From a bacterium (GTDB taxonomy: Bacteria; Patescibacteriota; Saccharimonadia; Saccharimonadales; Saccharimonadaceae), in NCBI GenBank assembly GCA_030530385.1, contig JAUMVB010000004.1:1-51988 (forward strand): a stretch of 51,988 nt of DNA, read 5' to 3'. The translations under genes and the position numbers were made by a program. Under the pieces are notes generated by a model that was not told where the DNA came from, did not search any database, and saw nothing but the letters and a program-made list of their open reading frames with translations. This document shows positions 5,842 through 32,730 of this stretch, piece by piece (within the stretch, counting starts at the first letter, position 1; the number at the start of each line of letters is the position of its first letter).

Positions 5842-6504
5842 ATGAATAATAGTGGTCTTCTATCAAAACAAAAAAGCCTAAGTGCTTTTTATGCTAGGGT
5901 TTATTCTTTAGTATCAGTAGCTGTTGGTATATCAGCTTTGACATCATTAATATATTTATATATGATGCCTCAAAGCATAGTTTATGCTATGCAGAATATT
6001 ATCATAATATGTATCGTGATTGTTATTCAGATCTGTTTAGCTATAGCCGCTCGTTTTTTGAGTGATAGTAAATGGAGTATTCCAATATTTGTGGGATATT
6101 CTGGGATTAATGGCTTTTTGCTGAGCATAGTGATATCAAAATTCACTCAAGGAACAGTGCTTGCCGCATTAATATCTAGCACTCTGCTTTTTTCCGTTAT
6201 GGCCCTGATAGGTGTGATTGTTAAGCGTGATTTATCCGGTGTTCTAGCGCTACTTATACCTTTAATTATTGGAGTCATTATTGCGAGTATCGTAAACTGG
6301 TATTTAGTTAGCGATATGGTATCTTTGGTAATTAGCTACGTGTCTGTCGTTATCTTTTCATGTTTAGTTGCTTACGATAACCAAAAGATTAAGCAAGCAT
6401 TCTATGAAAATGGTTACTCCGATAGATCCGCCTTAGATAGGGCTATGGCTCTATATCTAGATTTGATTAATATTTTTTTAGATATGCTGACAATATCTAA
6501 ATAA
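5842..6504 (+). CDS. Bax inhibitor-1 family membrane protein
   Basis: 220 aa, almost entirely hydrophobic, with about seven transmembrane helices. The N-terminal FYARVYSLVSVAVGISAL, the central GYSGINGFLLS and the C-terminal ALDRAMALYLDLINIFL are characteristic of the BI-1/YbhL/YccA family, in which the acidic residues of the last helix are linked to pH-gated Ca2+ leak. The bacterial role is poorly defined. It is monocistronic by its own promoter; the following helicase gene has a separate promoter. Confidence 0.85.
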   Translation: MNNSGLLSKQKSLSAFYARVYSLVSVAVGISALTSLIYLYMMPQSIVYAMQNIIIICIVIVIQICLAIAARFLSDSKWSIPIFVGYSGINGFLLSIVISKFTQGTVLAALISSTLLFSVMALIGVIVKRDLSGVLALLIPLIIGVIIASIVNWYLVSDMVSLVISYVSVVIFSCLVAYDNQKIKQAFYENGYSDRSALDRAMALYLDLINIFLDMLTISK

Positions 6505-6597: not shown

Positions 6598-9500
6598 ATG
6601 AACGACTTCGATAAAACTTTTGAAAAAAACTACAGAATGTTAAATAATGAACAGCGTAGTGCGGTAGATACGATTGACGGGCCGGTTTTGGTGATTGCTG
6701 GTCCGGGGACAGGTAAAACGCAGTTGCTCTCGACGCGTATTGCTAATATTTTGCGACAGACTGATACTTCGGCCGATAACATTTTAGCGATGACTTTTAC
6801 TGATGCTGGCGCTCAAAATATGCGCGAGCGACTTTCGACGCTGATTGGAGCTGAATCTTATAAAGTCGGGATTTTCACTTATCATGGTTTTGCGAATGAA
6901 ATTATCCAAAATTACCGCGAGTTTTTCCTCGATAAAAATCTAGAAAATCAAGCTGATGATTTAAAAAAGATTGAAATTTTAGCAGCTATAAGAGAAAATC
7001 TACCAGCAAATTCTGGATTAAAATATGTTGAATTAAAGAATTTCGCAAAAGTAATCTCTGAAATGAAAAGAGCATTGATTACGCCAGCCGAATTAAAACA
7101 TATTGCTCGAGCCAATATCGCCGAGCAGGACTCTTTTCATGAAAAAATCAAAGGTTTGCGAGTTTCTGGTTCCAGCTTTGCCAAGGTTGAGCCATTTTAC
7201 CGTGCTGTTCGTGAGGCGCTAAAGAGTTCTATTTCTAATCAATTAGACGGAACAAAATTCAAAAGTAATCTTGTTTTTTATCTTGAAAAACTAAACGAAG
7301 CGTTTTTAGAGGGCGAAGAAACAGGAAAGTCAAATTCGCTGACTGGCTGGAAAAATAACTTTCTAAAAGAAAAAGATCGCAATGATAATTTTCAAATAAC
7401 CGATGTTTATAAAAACAAAAAACTACTTGAATTTACCGATTTTTACGAAAACTTTAATAATGAAATGAAATCTCAAGGCCTCTATGACTTTGATGATATG
7501 ATCTTGGAAGTTATTGATACAGTTGAGAAAAATAACGACCTCCGTTTTACGCTGCAAGAAAAATACCAATATATCCTTCTTGATGAATATCAAGATACGA
7601 ATGACGCTCAGGCAAAAATGATCGAGTTGCTTACGGATAATCCTGTTGTTGAGGGCAAGCCGAATGTTCTGGCCGTTGGTGATGATGATCAAGCGATTAT
7701 GGCTTTTCAAGGGGCAAGCAAATCAAATATGATTGATTTTTATAATCGCTTCGGTAGCAATACGAAAGTTATTAATTTAACCAAAAATTATCGCTCGCAC
7801 GGTGATATTTTGAGCTCGTCTAAAAAAGTAGCGGATACGATTTCTGGTCGATTGACCAAAAATCTCCCGATCGCAATCGAGAAAGATATCTCGGCAGAGA
7901 AAGATTTTAGTGGTGAACAAATTAAGATCGAGCGAATTAATTTTGCGAGTCAAATTGCAGAGTTTTCTTGGATTGCTGAAGAAATTTCAAAGCTTATAGA
8001 AAAGGGTACTTTGGCTAGCGAGATCGCTATAATCGCACCGAAGCATAAGATTTTGCAAGCCCTTTCACCATATATTAAAAACCGAAATGTGCCAGTTAAA
8101 TATGATAAACGTGAAAATATTTTAGAAGATAAAACAATCCTGCAGTTAATTAAAATATCGAAATTGGTTTTGGCAATTCGTGATAAAAATGAAGACCAAA
8201 TGGCTGAGCTTTTCCCTGAAATATTAAGTTTTGATTTTTGGAAAATACCGACAGTTGAAGCTTGGAAAATGAGTTGGTCAGCGAAAGATAAACGTGAGTT
8301 TTGGATAGAGGCTATCTTGAGAAGTGATTGTTTAGCTATTCGAAGGCTAGGAGAAATTCTAGTGGCTCTGGCGGAGCTTTCATATGTCAATTCCTTCGAG
8401 GAAATGTTTGATTATATTTTAGGCTCGCGAGCAATTTTTGACGCGGAAGATGAAGGGTCTGATCAAGGAAATACTCTTCGGTCTCCGATCCGTGAATATC
8501 TTTCGGAAAAATCTGACGAAGAACTTTTTGATGTTATTTCAAATTTGACAGTCTTGCGGGATCATTTGCGAGAATTTTCTAAAGAGCAAAATAATGATTT
8601 GAGTGTACTTATTAAATTTGCCGACGCCTACAATAGAGCAGATCTAAAAATCCTCAATACAAATCCACATGCTTCGGATGAAAATGCCGTTCAGCTAATG
8701 ACACCGTTCGTGGCAAAAGGTCTAGAGTTTGATCATGTATTTTTACTTTCACTAAACCAAGAAGTCTGGAATAGATCAAGCGGCGGCTCTAAAACGATCT
8801 CGATGCCAATTAACTTAAAGTTCACAAATATTGAAGATGAGGGTGAAGATACTCGCAAACGATTACTTTTTGTGGCTATGACTCGCGCCAAAACTCACCT
8901 CTATCTCACAAATTATACTAGTGATTTTAGCGGTAAAAATACAAAATCGCTCGCTTTTCTTGACGAGCGTGAAGAAGATAAAATTCTAAAATCAAAAATT
9001 CTACCCGAGAAATGGCAAAATATATCACACAATAAAAAAGATGCTCTCGAAATTTCAGACTTAGAGCTTGACTGGCATGAATTCTACGCTGCAAAAAATG
9101 AATCAATGCGTAATCTTTTGCATCCACGGATTCAGAATTTTAAAATGAGCCCTACTAATCTAAATTCATTTATCGATATTGAGTATAGCGGGCCGCAAGC
9201 TTTTTACGAAAATAATATTTTATGTTTCCCTGAAGCTTATGGCGCATCGGCAACTCTTGGTACGCTTGTTCATGACGGTTTTAATTATATTCAAGATAAA
9301 ATTAATGCGGATGAAATACCGAGTTTTGATATTCTTCATAATCGCTTTATTGATAGAATTTCCAAATATCCAATCTCGGAAAAAGATCGGACAGATATTA
9401 CTGAACGATTTGATAGAATATTTAGTGACTTTTTCGAGAATCGATTGAATGAATTTAAAGCTGGCAATATTGCTGAAAAGAATTTTTCAAACTCTGGCGT

Positions 9501-29469: not shown

Positions 29470-29545
29470 TGGCACGGGCAGAGAGACTCGAACTCCCGAC
29501 ACCAGGTTTTGGAGACCTGTGCTCTACCAACTGAGCTATGCCCGT
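29470..29545 (-). tRNA. tRNA-Trp (anticodon CCA)
   Basis: Minus-strand acceptor ACGGGCA pairs with TGCCCGT; discriminator G and encoded CCA (29470-29472). The D-arm is GCTCAGTTGGTAGAGC; the anticodon stem CAGGT/ACCTG encloses CTCCAAA, giving CCA. The T-arm has GTTCGAGT. A CCA anticodon with TGA stops elsewhere confirms the standard reading of TGA. Confidence 0.96.
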
Positions 29546-29599: not shown

Positions 29600-29628
29600 T
29601 TGACATTTTGAGCTAAATATGATACAGT
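29600..29628 (+). promoter_or_regulatory. Sigma-70-type promoter of the orphan pair
   Basis: TTGACA (29600-29605), 17-nt spacer, TACAGT (29623-29628) with an extended TGa. Consensus -35 and spacing; weaker -10. The predicted start near 29635 lies right at the base of the first leader hairpin. Confidence 0.65.
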
Positions 29629-29639
29629 TTTAATTAGTT

Positions 29640-29737
29640 GAAAGCTTAACTAATGAATGAGCTTTTGGCTCGCTCATTATAAAGCTTTCTAAAAAAGAAA
29701 GGACTCACTCGGTTCCATTTGCGAGTGAGTTAAGGTG
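29640..29737 (+). promoter_or_regulatory. Structured 5' leader with two strong hairpins
   Basis: Hairpin 1: GAAAGCTT (29640-29647) pairs with AAGCTTTC (29682-29689), enclosing AATGAGC (29656-29662) paired with GCTCATT (29672-29678). Hairpin 2: ACTCACTCG (29703-29711) pairs perfectly with CGAGTGAGT (29722-29730). AAGGTG (29732-29737) begins 2 nt after hairpin 2. There is no T-run after either, so this looks like translational control or RNA stabilisation rather than termination. No known riboswitch class is recognised. Confidence 0.6.
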
Positions 29738-29743
29738 AATAAA

Positions 29744-30148
29744 ATGGAAACATCATTTGAATCGAAAGATTTTTCGGCCCTAAATGAAGGGGTTGAAGAA
29801 ATCATGTCCAATAAAATATTTGCAGCTAATAAAGAAAGCTGTAGATTAGAAAATTCTTTTGGCTACGCCCCAGAGCTATTAGATAGCGAAAGGGCAAAAG
29901 AAGCTGGAAAATTGCTAAACGATCTGTGTCGTTTAGCAATAGAAGCATATCATAGTAGATTAAAAAATCTATTCAATCAGGCATATAGATTTTTTGCCTC
30001 TAATCTAATTTTTTCATCTGGCATAGAAAAACCCATTATTGACCAGATGACTAGGTTGCGGAGGTTTTATCTCAGGTATGAGATAAAGGGACCATTCACA
30101 ACAGCTCCTCAACGAGCTCTAGATGAAGTCCTAAAGAACTATTTTTAA
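29744..30148 (+). CDS. Orphan protein, 134 aa
   Basis: Not recognised. The start at ATG 29744 is preferred because AAGGTG lies 6 nt upstream; a GTG at 29735 would add three residues but sits inside that site. Soluble and probably mostly helical: a helix-rich middle (AKEAGKLLNDLCRLAIEAYH, RLKNLFNQAYRFFAS) and a basic segment TRLRRFYLRYEIK. One cysteine cluster is absent. A strong promoter and structured leader imply regulated, possibly high expression. A terminator separates it from the next orphan gene, which has its own promoter. Confidence 0.6.
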   Translation: METSFESKDFSALNEGVEEIMSNKIFAANKESCRLENSFGYAPELLDSERAKEAGKLLNDLCRLAIEAYHSRLKNLFNQAYRFFASNLIFSSGIEKPIIDQMTRLRRFYLRYEIKGPFTTAPQRALDEVLKNYF

Positions 30149-30152
30149 AGTT

Positions 30153-30180
30153 AAGCCCTCGCACGAGGGCTTTTAAATTT
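30153..30180 (+). terminator. Rho-independent terminator of the first orphan gene
   Basis: AAGCCCTC(G) (30153-30161) pairs with (C)GAGGGCTT (30164-30172), then TTAAATTT. Confidence 0.8.
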
Positions 30181-30198
30181 GCTATAAAACGATAGATA

Positions 30199-30207
30199 TG
30201 TTAAAAT
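30199..30207 (+). promoter_or_regulatory. Extended -10 promoter of the second orphan gene
   Basis: TGtTAAAAT; predicted start near 30214, leader about 26 nt with AAAGGAGG. Confidence 0.6.
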
Positions 30208-30239
30208 ATATTTATCTTTTTTCCAAAGGAGGAACAAAA

Positions 30240-30896
30240 ATGGAAAGTACTTTAACTACCTTAGTCGAGAGAATCGACTACCTACTTAGTAAATCTGATC
30301 TAAAAGGAGTAGTGGAGCTCCTCTGTAGTCTCAGCGCAAAAGAAAAAACAGCTTTTGCAAGTTTCTGCAGACAACACGGGCTACAATACGATAGTTATTT
30401 GCAAGCTATCGAGCTTATTCCAGATCAGTCCTATAAGGGATTGGTAGACTCGATTTATCGCTTCCGGAACTGTAATATTTATAGTTGCAGAATAGTGGAA
30501 GCGAGAATCAATCTGTTAAGCCAGCTTCTGTATTACCGACTCATTGAAGAGGGTAAATCAGAGGCGGAAGCATTAAATTTATCCTCAATCCAAGAACTAC
30601 GAATGAGACTAGATCTCATGTCTAAAAAAAGTTTTTGGATTAGCAGCGAGAATATAAGTCGTTGCTGGGATATTGTAGAGAGTCTAAATACTCCAGACTC
30701 GGCAATACTCCTAGGTAGGTCTATAAAGAGTAGATTAGCCACAAATACTCTTAATTTTGTGGCTAAAGATAAAAAACACAGAATGAGGCTATTAAAACCA
30801 AGTCATGTATTAATAGAATATGTGACAAATAACAGCCATTTCTTCTCGAAAAGGAGAAGGATTTTAAAAAGATGGCAAAAAGCAAGAAAAAAATAG
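30240..30896 (+). CDS. Orphan helical protein, 218 aa
   Basis: Not recognised. The start at 30240 has a perfect AAAGGAGG 7 nt upstream; the frame from 30198 would begin within the promoter. The sequence appears almost fully helical (LTTLVERIDYLLSKSDLKGVVELL, then AIELIPDQSYKGLVDSIYRF), with a very basic C-terminus (FFSKRRRILKRWQKARKK) that could bind nucleic acid or membrane. Cysteines occur singly, not as a metal site. It lies next to the first orphan gene and convergent with the ABC exporter operon. Confidence 0.6.
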   Translation: MESTLTTLVERIDYLLSKSDLKGVVELLCSLSAKEKTAFASFCRQHGLQYDSYLQAIELIPDQSYKGLVDSIYRFRNCNIYSCRIVEARINLLSQLLYYRLIEEGKSEAEALNLSSIQELRMRLDLMSKKSFWISSENISRCWDIVESLNTPDSAILLGRSIKSRLATNTLNFVAKDKKHRMRLLKPSHVLIEYVTNNSHFFSKRRRILKRWQKARKK

Positions 30897-30925
30897 AGAG
30901 TTCATAGAACTCTCTTTAACTTTAT
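30895..30925. terminator. Bidirectional terminator between orphan gene and ABC exporter
   Basis: AGAGAGTTC (30895-30903) pairs with GAACTCTCT (30907-30915). A T-rich tail follows on the plus strand and a long T-run on the minus strand. Confidence 0.8.
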
Positions 30926-30945: not shown

Positions 30946-32730
30946 CTATTCAGCGAACTGAGATTGATAAAGTCTAGCGTAATTACCACCCAAGGAGAGT
31001 AATTCCTCATGAGTGCCTTGCTCAACAATATTACCTTTTTCGAGCACAAGAATTAAATCTGCATTACGGATCGTAGATAATCTATGCGCGATAACAAAAC
31101 TTGTGCGTCCATGAGTCAGATTATCCATTGCTGACTGAATGGCTACTTCTGTTCGTGTATCAACAGAGCTGGTCGCCTCATCAAGAATTAGCATAGGAGA
31201 ATCTGTCAAAATAGCCCGCGCAATCGTGAGGAGCTGTTTTTCGCCAGCCGAAATATTATCAACATCCTGCGAAATAATAGTATTATAACCATCAGGCAGA
31301 GTGCGAATAAAATGATCAACGTGAGCCTTTTTTGCAGCTTCTACGACTTCTTCGTGAGTCGCATCTGGCTTGCCGAATTTCAAATTCTCCTCGATAGTTC
31401 CATTAAAAAGCCACGTATCTTGAAGAACCATACCGAACAAACTTCGAACCTCACCCCGAGAAGCTTTTGATGTATCAATACCGTCAATTTTAATCTTGCC
31501 GCTATCAACATCATAAAATCGCATCAATAGATTAACCAAGGTAGTCTTTCCAGCGCCAGTTGGCCCAACTATAGCTACATTTGAATTCGGTTTAATTTTA
31601 GCATTGAAATTTGAAATAACTGGCTTATTCTTTGAATACGAAAAGTTAATATTATTAAATTCAACTTCGCCACGAATTTCTTTATTAAAACGGCCTGAAA
31701 AGTCTTCAGCTGGTTCTTCGTCCGCATCAAGAATATTAAACACTCGCTCGCTCGCAGCCAATGTAGTTTGTATTTGAGTCATGGAATTAGCTATCTGCGA
31801 TAAAGGCTGATTGAAGCGATTCATATATTGCATAAACGCTGATATGTCACCAATTGAAATTTGACCACTAGCAGCACGAATACCACCGATAACCGCAATT
31901 GTTAAAGTTGAGAGGTTATTTATGAATCCCATAACAGGATAGATTAATCCACCGAAGAACTGAGACTTCCAGCTTGAAGAAAACATCTCTTCGTTAATTT
32001 CGTTAAACGAAGAAATTGATTTTTCCTCACCATTATAAGCTTTCAAGATTTCGTGAGAAGAAAGCATTTCTTCTGTATGACCGTTTAATTTTCCTGTAAA
32101 TTTTTGTAAATCGCTAAAATATACTTGACTGAATTTTGAAATTAAGCCAATTAGACCGACCGAAATTACACCGGTAGCAAAAGTTACTAAACTAAGTTCG
32201 AAAGAGATTCTAAGCATCATGATTATCACACCCACAATCGTAATAAGCGAATAGGTTACTTGATTTATAGTTTCACCAAGATTGTTACTAATCGTCTCCA
32301 CATCATTAGTTATTACAGATACTATATCGCCAGTTTTACGCTTATCAAAGTATGAAAGTGGCAATTTCGATATCTTTTTGGATGTTTCATCACGTAAATT
32401 AAATACAATAGTCTGCGCCATTTTAGCCATTAGCCAATTTTGAAGATACCCTAAAATTCCACTAATTCCATATATCGCAACCAATAGAGCTCCCAACTCT
32501 CCAATCTTTTTGAAATCCGGAGTAAATTTGGGGCCGGTAGCTGTCATTCTGGGGTTTTCAGTGATTAAATTTATTAAATCACCAATAATTTGCGGCGCAA
32601 AAATAGCCAAAATAGCACCAGCTGATACGGACAAGATAAACAGAGCCACCAACAACTTAAACTCTGAAAAATATTTTAATAATCTTATTGCTGTTTTGAG
32701 AGATATTTTTTGTTTTTCAGATTGGGCCAT
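30946..32730 (-). CDS. ABC exporter half-transporter with consensus catalytic site
   Basis: 594 aa, six transmembrane helices then a nucleotide-binding domain. Walker A is GPTGAGKTT, Walker B MLILDEATSSVD retains the catalytic Glu, the H-loop is FVIAHRLSTI, but the signature is ISAGEKQ rather than LSGGQ. The start overlaps the upstream half's stop by 1 nt (TAATG), with GAAAGGAG upstream. It pairs with the next gene as a heterodimer of the LmrCD/BmrCD/TM287-288 type that exports drugs, lipids or peptides. No C39 peptidase domain, so it does not process a leader peptide itself. Confidence 0.93.
   Translation of the reverse strand: MAQSEKQKISLKTAIRLLKYFSEFKLLVALFILSVSAGAILAIFAPQIIGDLINLITENPRMTATGPKFTPDFKKIGELGALLVAIYGISGILGYLQNWLMAKMAQTIVFNLRDETSKKISKLPLSYFDKRKTGDIVSVITNDVETISNNLGETINQVTYSLITIVGVIIMMLRISFELSLVTFATGVISVGLIGLISKFSQVYFSDLQKFTGKLNGHTEEMLSSHEILKAYNGEEKSISSFNEINEEMFSSSWKSQFFGGLIYPVMGFINNLSTLTIAVIGGIRAASGQISIGDISAFMQYMNRFNQPLSQIANSMTQIQTTLAASERVFNILDADEEPAEDFSGRFNKEIRGEVEFNNINFSYSKNKPVISNFNAKIKPNSNVAIVGPTGAGKTTLVNLLMRFYDVDSGKIKIDGIDTSKASRGEVRSLFGMVLQDTWLFNGTIEENLKFGKPDATHEEVVEAAKKAHVDHFIRTLPDGYNTIISQDVDNISAGEKQLLTIARAILTDSPMLILDEATSSVDTRTEVAIQSAMDNLTHGRTSFVIAHRLSTIRNADLILVLEKGNIVEQGTHEELLSLGGNYARLYQSQFAE

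Follow-up and report, generated by a model that had tools for sequence, protein, structure and literature searches.

Do two neighbouring orphan genes beside a tRNA gene, the first of them preceded by a strong promoter and a hairpin-rich leader, make up one regulated system, and what do the hairpins stand for? An earlier note on the DNA analysed here (the window, a stretch of 51,988 nt, referred to below as 52 kb, from the 628-kb, 14-contig assembly of genome G000, which its size and relatives mark as probably a Saccharimonadales-like member of the Patescibacteria) had singled out the pair together with its leader. The hairpins are not special to the leader; they are spread through the coding sequences, and this density of hairpins within small orphan genes of a variable slot is a more interesting feature than the leader itself.

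The interval between tRNA-Trp (CCA anticodon; 29470..29545, minus strand; identified by ARAGORN and Rfam), which forms one border of the slot, and a convergent ABC transporter gene (30946-32730) holds two plus-strand units, p134 followed by p218. Promoter 1 (29600..29628) consists of TTGACA, a 17-nt spacer and the extended -10 element TG-A-TACAGT, and look-alikes are found at the same place in the sister genomes G003, G002 and G001. Single consensus matches as good as these are no less frequent here than expected by chance (nine found, 6.9 expected). Folding places two plus-strand hairpins in the leader: one with an outer stem of 8 bp and an inner part of 6+6 bp (29640..29689), and one with a perfect 9-bp stem (29703..29730) that stops 1 nt short of AAGG, the ribosome binding site of p134 (29732-29735). 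The orphan ORF p134 (134 aa; 29744..30148) is followed by an intrinsic terminator (30153..30172). Next comes promoter 2 (TTGCTA, 17-nt spacer, TG-T-TAAAAT; 30179..30207), whose spacing matches that of the p218 homolog in G003, and the ribosome binding site AAAGGAGG (30225..30232), which is also present upstream of that homolog. The orphan ORF p218 (218 aa; 30240..30896), predicted to be all-helical with a basic C-terminal tail, ends at a terminator-like hairpin at the junction with the ABC transporter gene (30895..30915), usable from both strands. The promoter, leader hairpins, terminator and second promoter were all accurately described before. Judged by these signals, p134 and p218 are predicted to be two self-contained single-gene transcription units, each with promoter, leader, ribosome binding site, ORF and terminator.

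Homologs of the two proteins are scarce. None was found for p134 among 325 genomes of the order, and p218 had a single one among 393, with 41% identity, in the sister species G003 (MAG JAUMUX01); a genome-contig scan recovered the same homolog as JAUMUX010000009.1. It adjoins rpsJ, which is another locus, and is not accompanied by p134; its own signals comprise a promoter (TTGCAA-17-TATAAT), a terminator and a ribosome binding site. A phylum sample of 296 genomes, which partly overlaps the order sample and does not include G003, yielded no further p218 homolog. Scans of viral and genome contigs, phages and plasmids gave no match beyond G003 (p218: none in phages, plasmids and viral contigs; p134: none in phages and viral contigs). 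Co-occurrence of p134 and p218 was not found, as the only p218 homolog stands alone elsewhere and p134 has none. Neither the co-transcription nor the co-occurrence of a toxin-antitoxin or defence pair was seen; a terminator and a second promoter separate the genes.

Differences between p218 and its homolog at codon positions 1, 2 and 3 amount to 103, 74 and 146 of 211, respectively. Since second positions change least and third positions most, p218 is a real protein gene under protein-level constraint. Both proteins are orphans, as had been claimed: neither has an accepted match in Pfam, NCBIfam, PHROG or PADLOC, and a PDB sequence search returned weak matches only. At the curated level (Pfam, NCBIfam, PADLOC) no toxin, antitoxin or defence domain was detected. 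The AF2 model of p218 is all-helical (pLDDT 75.5); used as a Foldseek query it gave no match below E 0.001 and low TM-scores, and 14-3-3 and designed repeat proteins were rejected as its fold on these grounds. The model of p134 is mostly helical and of low confidence (pLDDT 47), too poor for a fold search. According to these models, the products are probably intracellular helical proteins.

The leader of G000 folds better than all of its 200 shuffles (z -5.0). Among the sister slots, the leader of G001 (z -4.0) also beats its shuffles, and those of G002 (-1.7) and G003 (-1.6) hardly do so. The four leaders fold differently and cannot be aligned as one RNA. A DNA search with the leader returned promoter-length matches only, and a Rfam 15 scan of the window at gathering thresholds reported three tRNAs and no match in the leader. 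Judged by the criterion that the earlier note itself had set, the proposal that the leader is a conserved regulatory RNA fails, because the sister genomes have no homologous leader; with nothing to align across the sister slots, no covariation can be claimed for the two stems.

Equally strong perfect hairpins inside the ORFs had escaped the earlier note. Three lie in p134, with perfect stems of 12 bp (29911..29940), 11 bp (29962..29995) and 9 bp (30066..30087), and a hairpin scan also located one of 11 bp in p218 (30735..30766; all on the plus strand). It is p134, and not the leader, that contains the most structured 110-nt segment of the 52 kb. The 1.3-kb region contains seven perfect stems of at least 8 bp, two of which are terminators, where the average for a stretch of this length is 0.93. 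Of the five stems in the 52 kb that reach 11 bp or more, three are inside p134 or p218. Folding was compared with 150 synonymous-codon shuffles, which hold protein and codon usage fixed. The z scores were -6.3 for p134, -6.3 for p218 and -4.3 for the p218 homolog, and in no case was any of the 150 shuffles as good; dinucleotide shuffles agree (z -8.3 and -6.2). In the sense of folding better than synonymous shuffles along the coding sequence, p134 and p218 both have ordered structure. Perfect inverted repeats also occur within the coding frames beyond chance, the hairpin score being equalled by 0 of 400 synonymous shuffles for p134 and by 13 of 400 for p218.

The helices are local, with a median span of about 20 nt compared with 36-38 nt in shuffles, and show no excess of G-U pairs. 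The two strands of p134 are structured to the same degree; the z score is lower for the sense than for the antisense strand both in p218 (-6.3 vs -4.6) and in its homolog (-4.3 vs -2.3). The 11-bp hairpin of p218 is absent from the homolog, which has no perfect stem of at least 8 bp. Conservation of helices between the two was rejected: 47% of pairs are kept vs 35-45% in slid controls, two-sided changes are fewer than in these controls, and there is no covariation.

Other ORFs behave in a similar way. With 14 shuffles per ORF, which makes the scores noisy, z was -5 or lower in 7 of the 178 ORFs with a length of 100-330 aa in a 350-kb sample of G000, in 3 of 141 ORFs of G003, and in none of 98 ORFs of the sister genome G004 and none of 34 of E. 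coli K-12. When the seven G000 ORFs, none of which has an accepted Pfam domain, were re-tested with 30 shuffles, six stayed at or below -6 and one moved to -3.6. The three G003 cases are SecE and both parts of a MYG1-family gene that is split over two ORFs (L089:781-1751 on contig G003:C7), the latter with the most extreme z scores of that sample (-10 and -7.2). Besides p134 and p218, four small ORFs of G000 without accepted Pfam domain score about -7 to -9 (L070:4246-4983, L076:1074-1433, L083:793-1179 and L074:6975-7328) and remain near -7 or lower when re-tested. The last of these belongs to a cluster of three small membrane-anchored ORFs of similar layout (L074:5745-6023, 6151-6417 and 6975-7328), perhaps one family. 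Across ORFs, hairpins rise from 0.045 per kb in codon-typical to 0.88 per kb in codon-atypical ORFs, the class with the lowest codon scores including ORFs that may not be genes.

The interval between tRNA-Trp and the ABC gene differs among the sister genomes. It contains an unrelated ORF of 124 aa in G003 and another of 139 aa in G001, each with a terminator and with a TTGACA promoter (pattern TTGACA-17-TA...T) pointing away from the tRNA. The contig of G002 breaks off just after the start codon that follows promoter and leader, and tRNA-Trp of G004 has no such unit. The promoter spacer word GAGCTAAATATG is common to G000 and G003, the corresponding word in G002 is TTGACATTTTGGAGCAAATGTGATACAAT, and the G001 promoter resembles the others mainly in its hexamers. 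A similar slot promoter is thus found in three sister genomes, and the gene differs in the two in which it is complete. Descent of p134 and the 124-aa and 139-aa proteins from a common ancestor was considered and rejected, as their best scores lie within the shuffle range. Searches of 325 order genomes each gave no convincing homolog of the 124-aa and 139-aa ORFs; weak order-level matches of these two and of p134, with E values of 0.001-0.045 and in many cases interrupted by stops, were put down to chance. Because a similar promoter is kept while the gene differs, the units would be accessory genes, either subject to exchange or diverging very rapidly.

Pseudopilin-like ORFs were noted in the tRNA-Trp slot of G003 (L009:1879-2445) and, in similar form, beside rpsJ in G002 (L108:1905-2399). 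As the slot and the rpsJ site both host pseudopilin-like and p218-type genes, exchange of genes between them is suggested by the four genomes compared, in one of which the slot is cut by the contig end. The G000 assembly lacks rpsJ, which leaves a relocation of p218 conjectural. Further observations concern the surroundings. An HNH endonuclease ORF (L009:3182-3892) lies between tRNA-Trp and a YgjP-like gene in G003 and is absent there in G000. With respect to the YgjP-like gene, tRNA-Trp points one way in G001 and G002 (L011:3267-3342, L012:176-251) and the opposite way in G000 and G003. Elsewhere in G003, a small ORF (L049:225-593, contig G003:C9) stands behind TTGACATTTTGCGCAAAATAGGTTAAAAT, which resembles the slot promoter, and has an internal perfect hairpin of 11 bp and a folding z of about -4.

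The account that we favour, with odds slightly better than even (about 0.55), is that p134 and p218 are two single-gene accessory units in a variable slot and that their hairpins reflect a general density of inverted repeats produced mainly by template switching. The slot, bounded by tRNA-Trp on one side and by the 3' end of the ABC gene on the other, would hold accessory units behind a similar strong extended -10 promoter. Template-switch mutation would create local inverted repeats that are tolerated in weakly constrained genes, and the resulting hairpins might be kept since they stabilise the transcript. Those of leader and coding sequence would then be part of one general density and not a specific sensor. 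Inverted repeats at the DNA level are favoured because hairpin density rises with codon atypicality, because helices are local without G-U enrichment, and because p134 is structured on both strands. Points that weigh against this account are the G001 promoter, alike mainly in its hexamers, the doubtful genes in the class of lowest codon scores, the lack of rpsJ in the G000 assembly, and the small number of genomes, four with one slot incomplete, behind the idea of exchange.

The origin of the hairpins may be mutational, through template switching in genes under weak constraint, or selective, in favour of structured mRNA. According to the latter explanation, which we regard as less likely, the coding mRNAs of these orphan genes, taken to be strongly transcribed, are selected for dense hairpins that would prolong the life of the mRNA, slow or pause translation, or protect from nucleases; the degree of structure would be kept while individual helices change, by analogy with some RNA viruses. 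The z scores unmatched by synonymous shuffles point in this direction, as does the fact that both p218 homologs are structured though their helices differ, and the class of small orphan ORFs in G000 behaves alike. The excess of sense over antisense structure in p218 and its homolog hints at RNA-level selection and speaks against template switching, and the homolog's lack of perfect stems of 8 bp or more also counts against the mutational reading. However, G-U pairs are not enriched, p134 is the same on both strands, and the most extreme G003 cases, the split MYG1 pieces and SecE, do not form one functional class. That individual helices are not conserved fits the mutational reading and selection for general structure equally. 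In a stronger form, which is rather unlikely, small lineage-specific genes of the genus would be selected for densely folded mRNA, the transcript itself would be the functional or protected product, and the slot would serve to deliver genes of this kind downstream of a strong promoter of standard type.

Recent acquisition of p134 and p218 from a phage, a plasmid or another foreign source is improbable. Their codon usage is atypical (p218 scores lower than any of the window's 37 reference genes, and the score of p134 is low), the slot content varies, and the HNH endonuclease ORF adjoins the tRNA in G003; against this, the searches of mobile and viral sequences described above were negative, and the GC content of 0.36-0.37 matches that of the window (0.373). 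A regulated toxin-antitoxin-like or defence pair under a structured leader, as first proposed, is very improbable: strong promoter, structured leader and neighbouring small orphan genes are outweighed by the terminator and promoter between the genes, the p218 homolog without p134, the lack of PADLOC, Pfam and Rfam matches, and a leader that is not conserved.

Where bacterial genomes are very small, their orphan genes are usually set aside as unknowns. Those described here share two measurable traits, namely a reused promoter slot with changing genes and a coding sequence packed with hairpins. Hairpins due to mutation would trace the way in which new genes diverge; hairpins due to selection would be a sign of mRNA control at a so far uncharacterised level. 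Perfect inverted repeats within protein-coding genes have a parallel in the mitochondrial genes of Nematomorpha, where palindromes of up to 284 bp occur in conserved respiratory genes (PMC6649704); the stems in p134 and p218, in contrast, measure 8-12 bp and belong to bacterial orphan genes. Perfect local hairpins can arise in one step through template-switch mutation (PMC8794818; for yeast proteins, PMC8604942), which could explain the clustering of hairpins in loosely constrained genes. Genome-scale ordered RNA structure is found in RNA viruses (e.g. PMC3765861). Unlike the viral case, the present one concerns genes on a bacterial chromosome, each a few hundred nt long, and any action at the RNA level is hypothetical; like it, it combines coding sequence folded far beyond chance with individual helices that are not conserved. 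Finally, bacterial hotspots for accessory genes beside tRNA genes have conserved flanks, variable small gene content and a tRNA border. The tRNA-Trp slot differs from them in that no integrase was seen and its promoter side appears to be conserved, and it resembles them in its conserved flanks, its variable small genes and the tRNA at its border.
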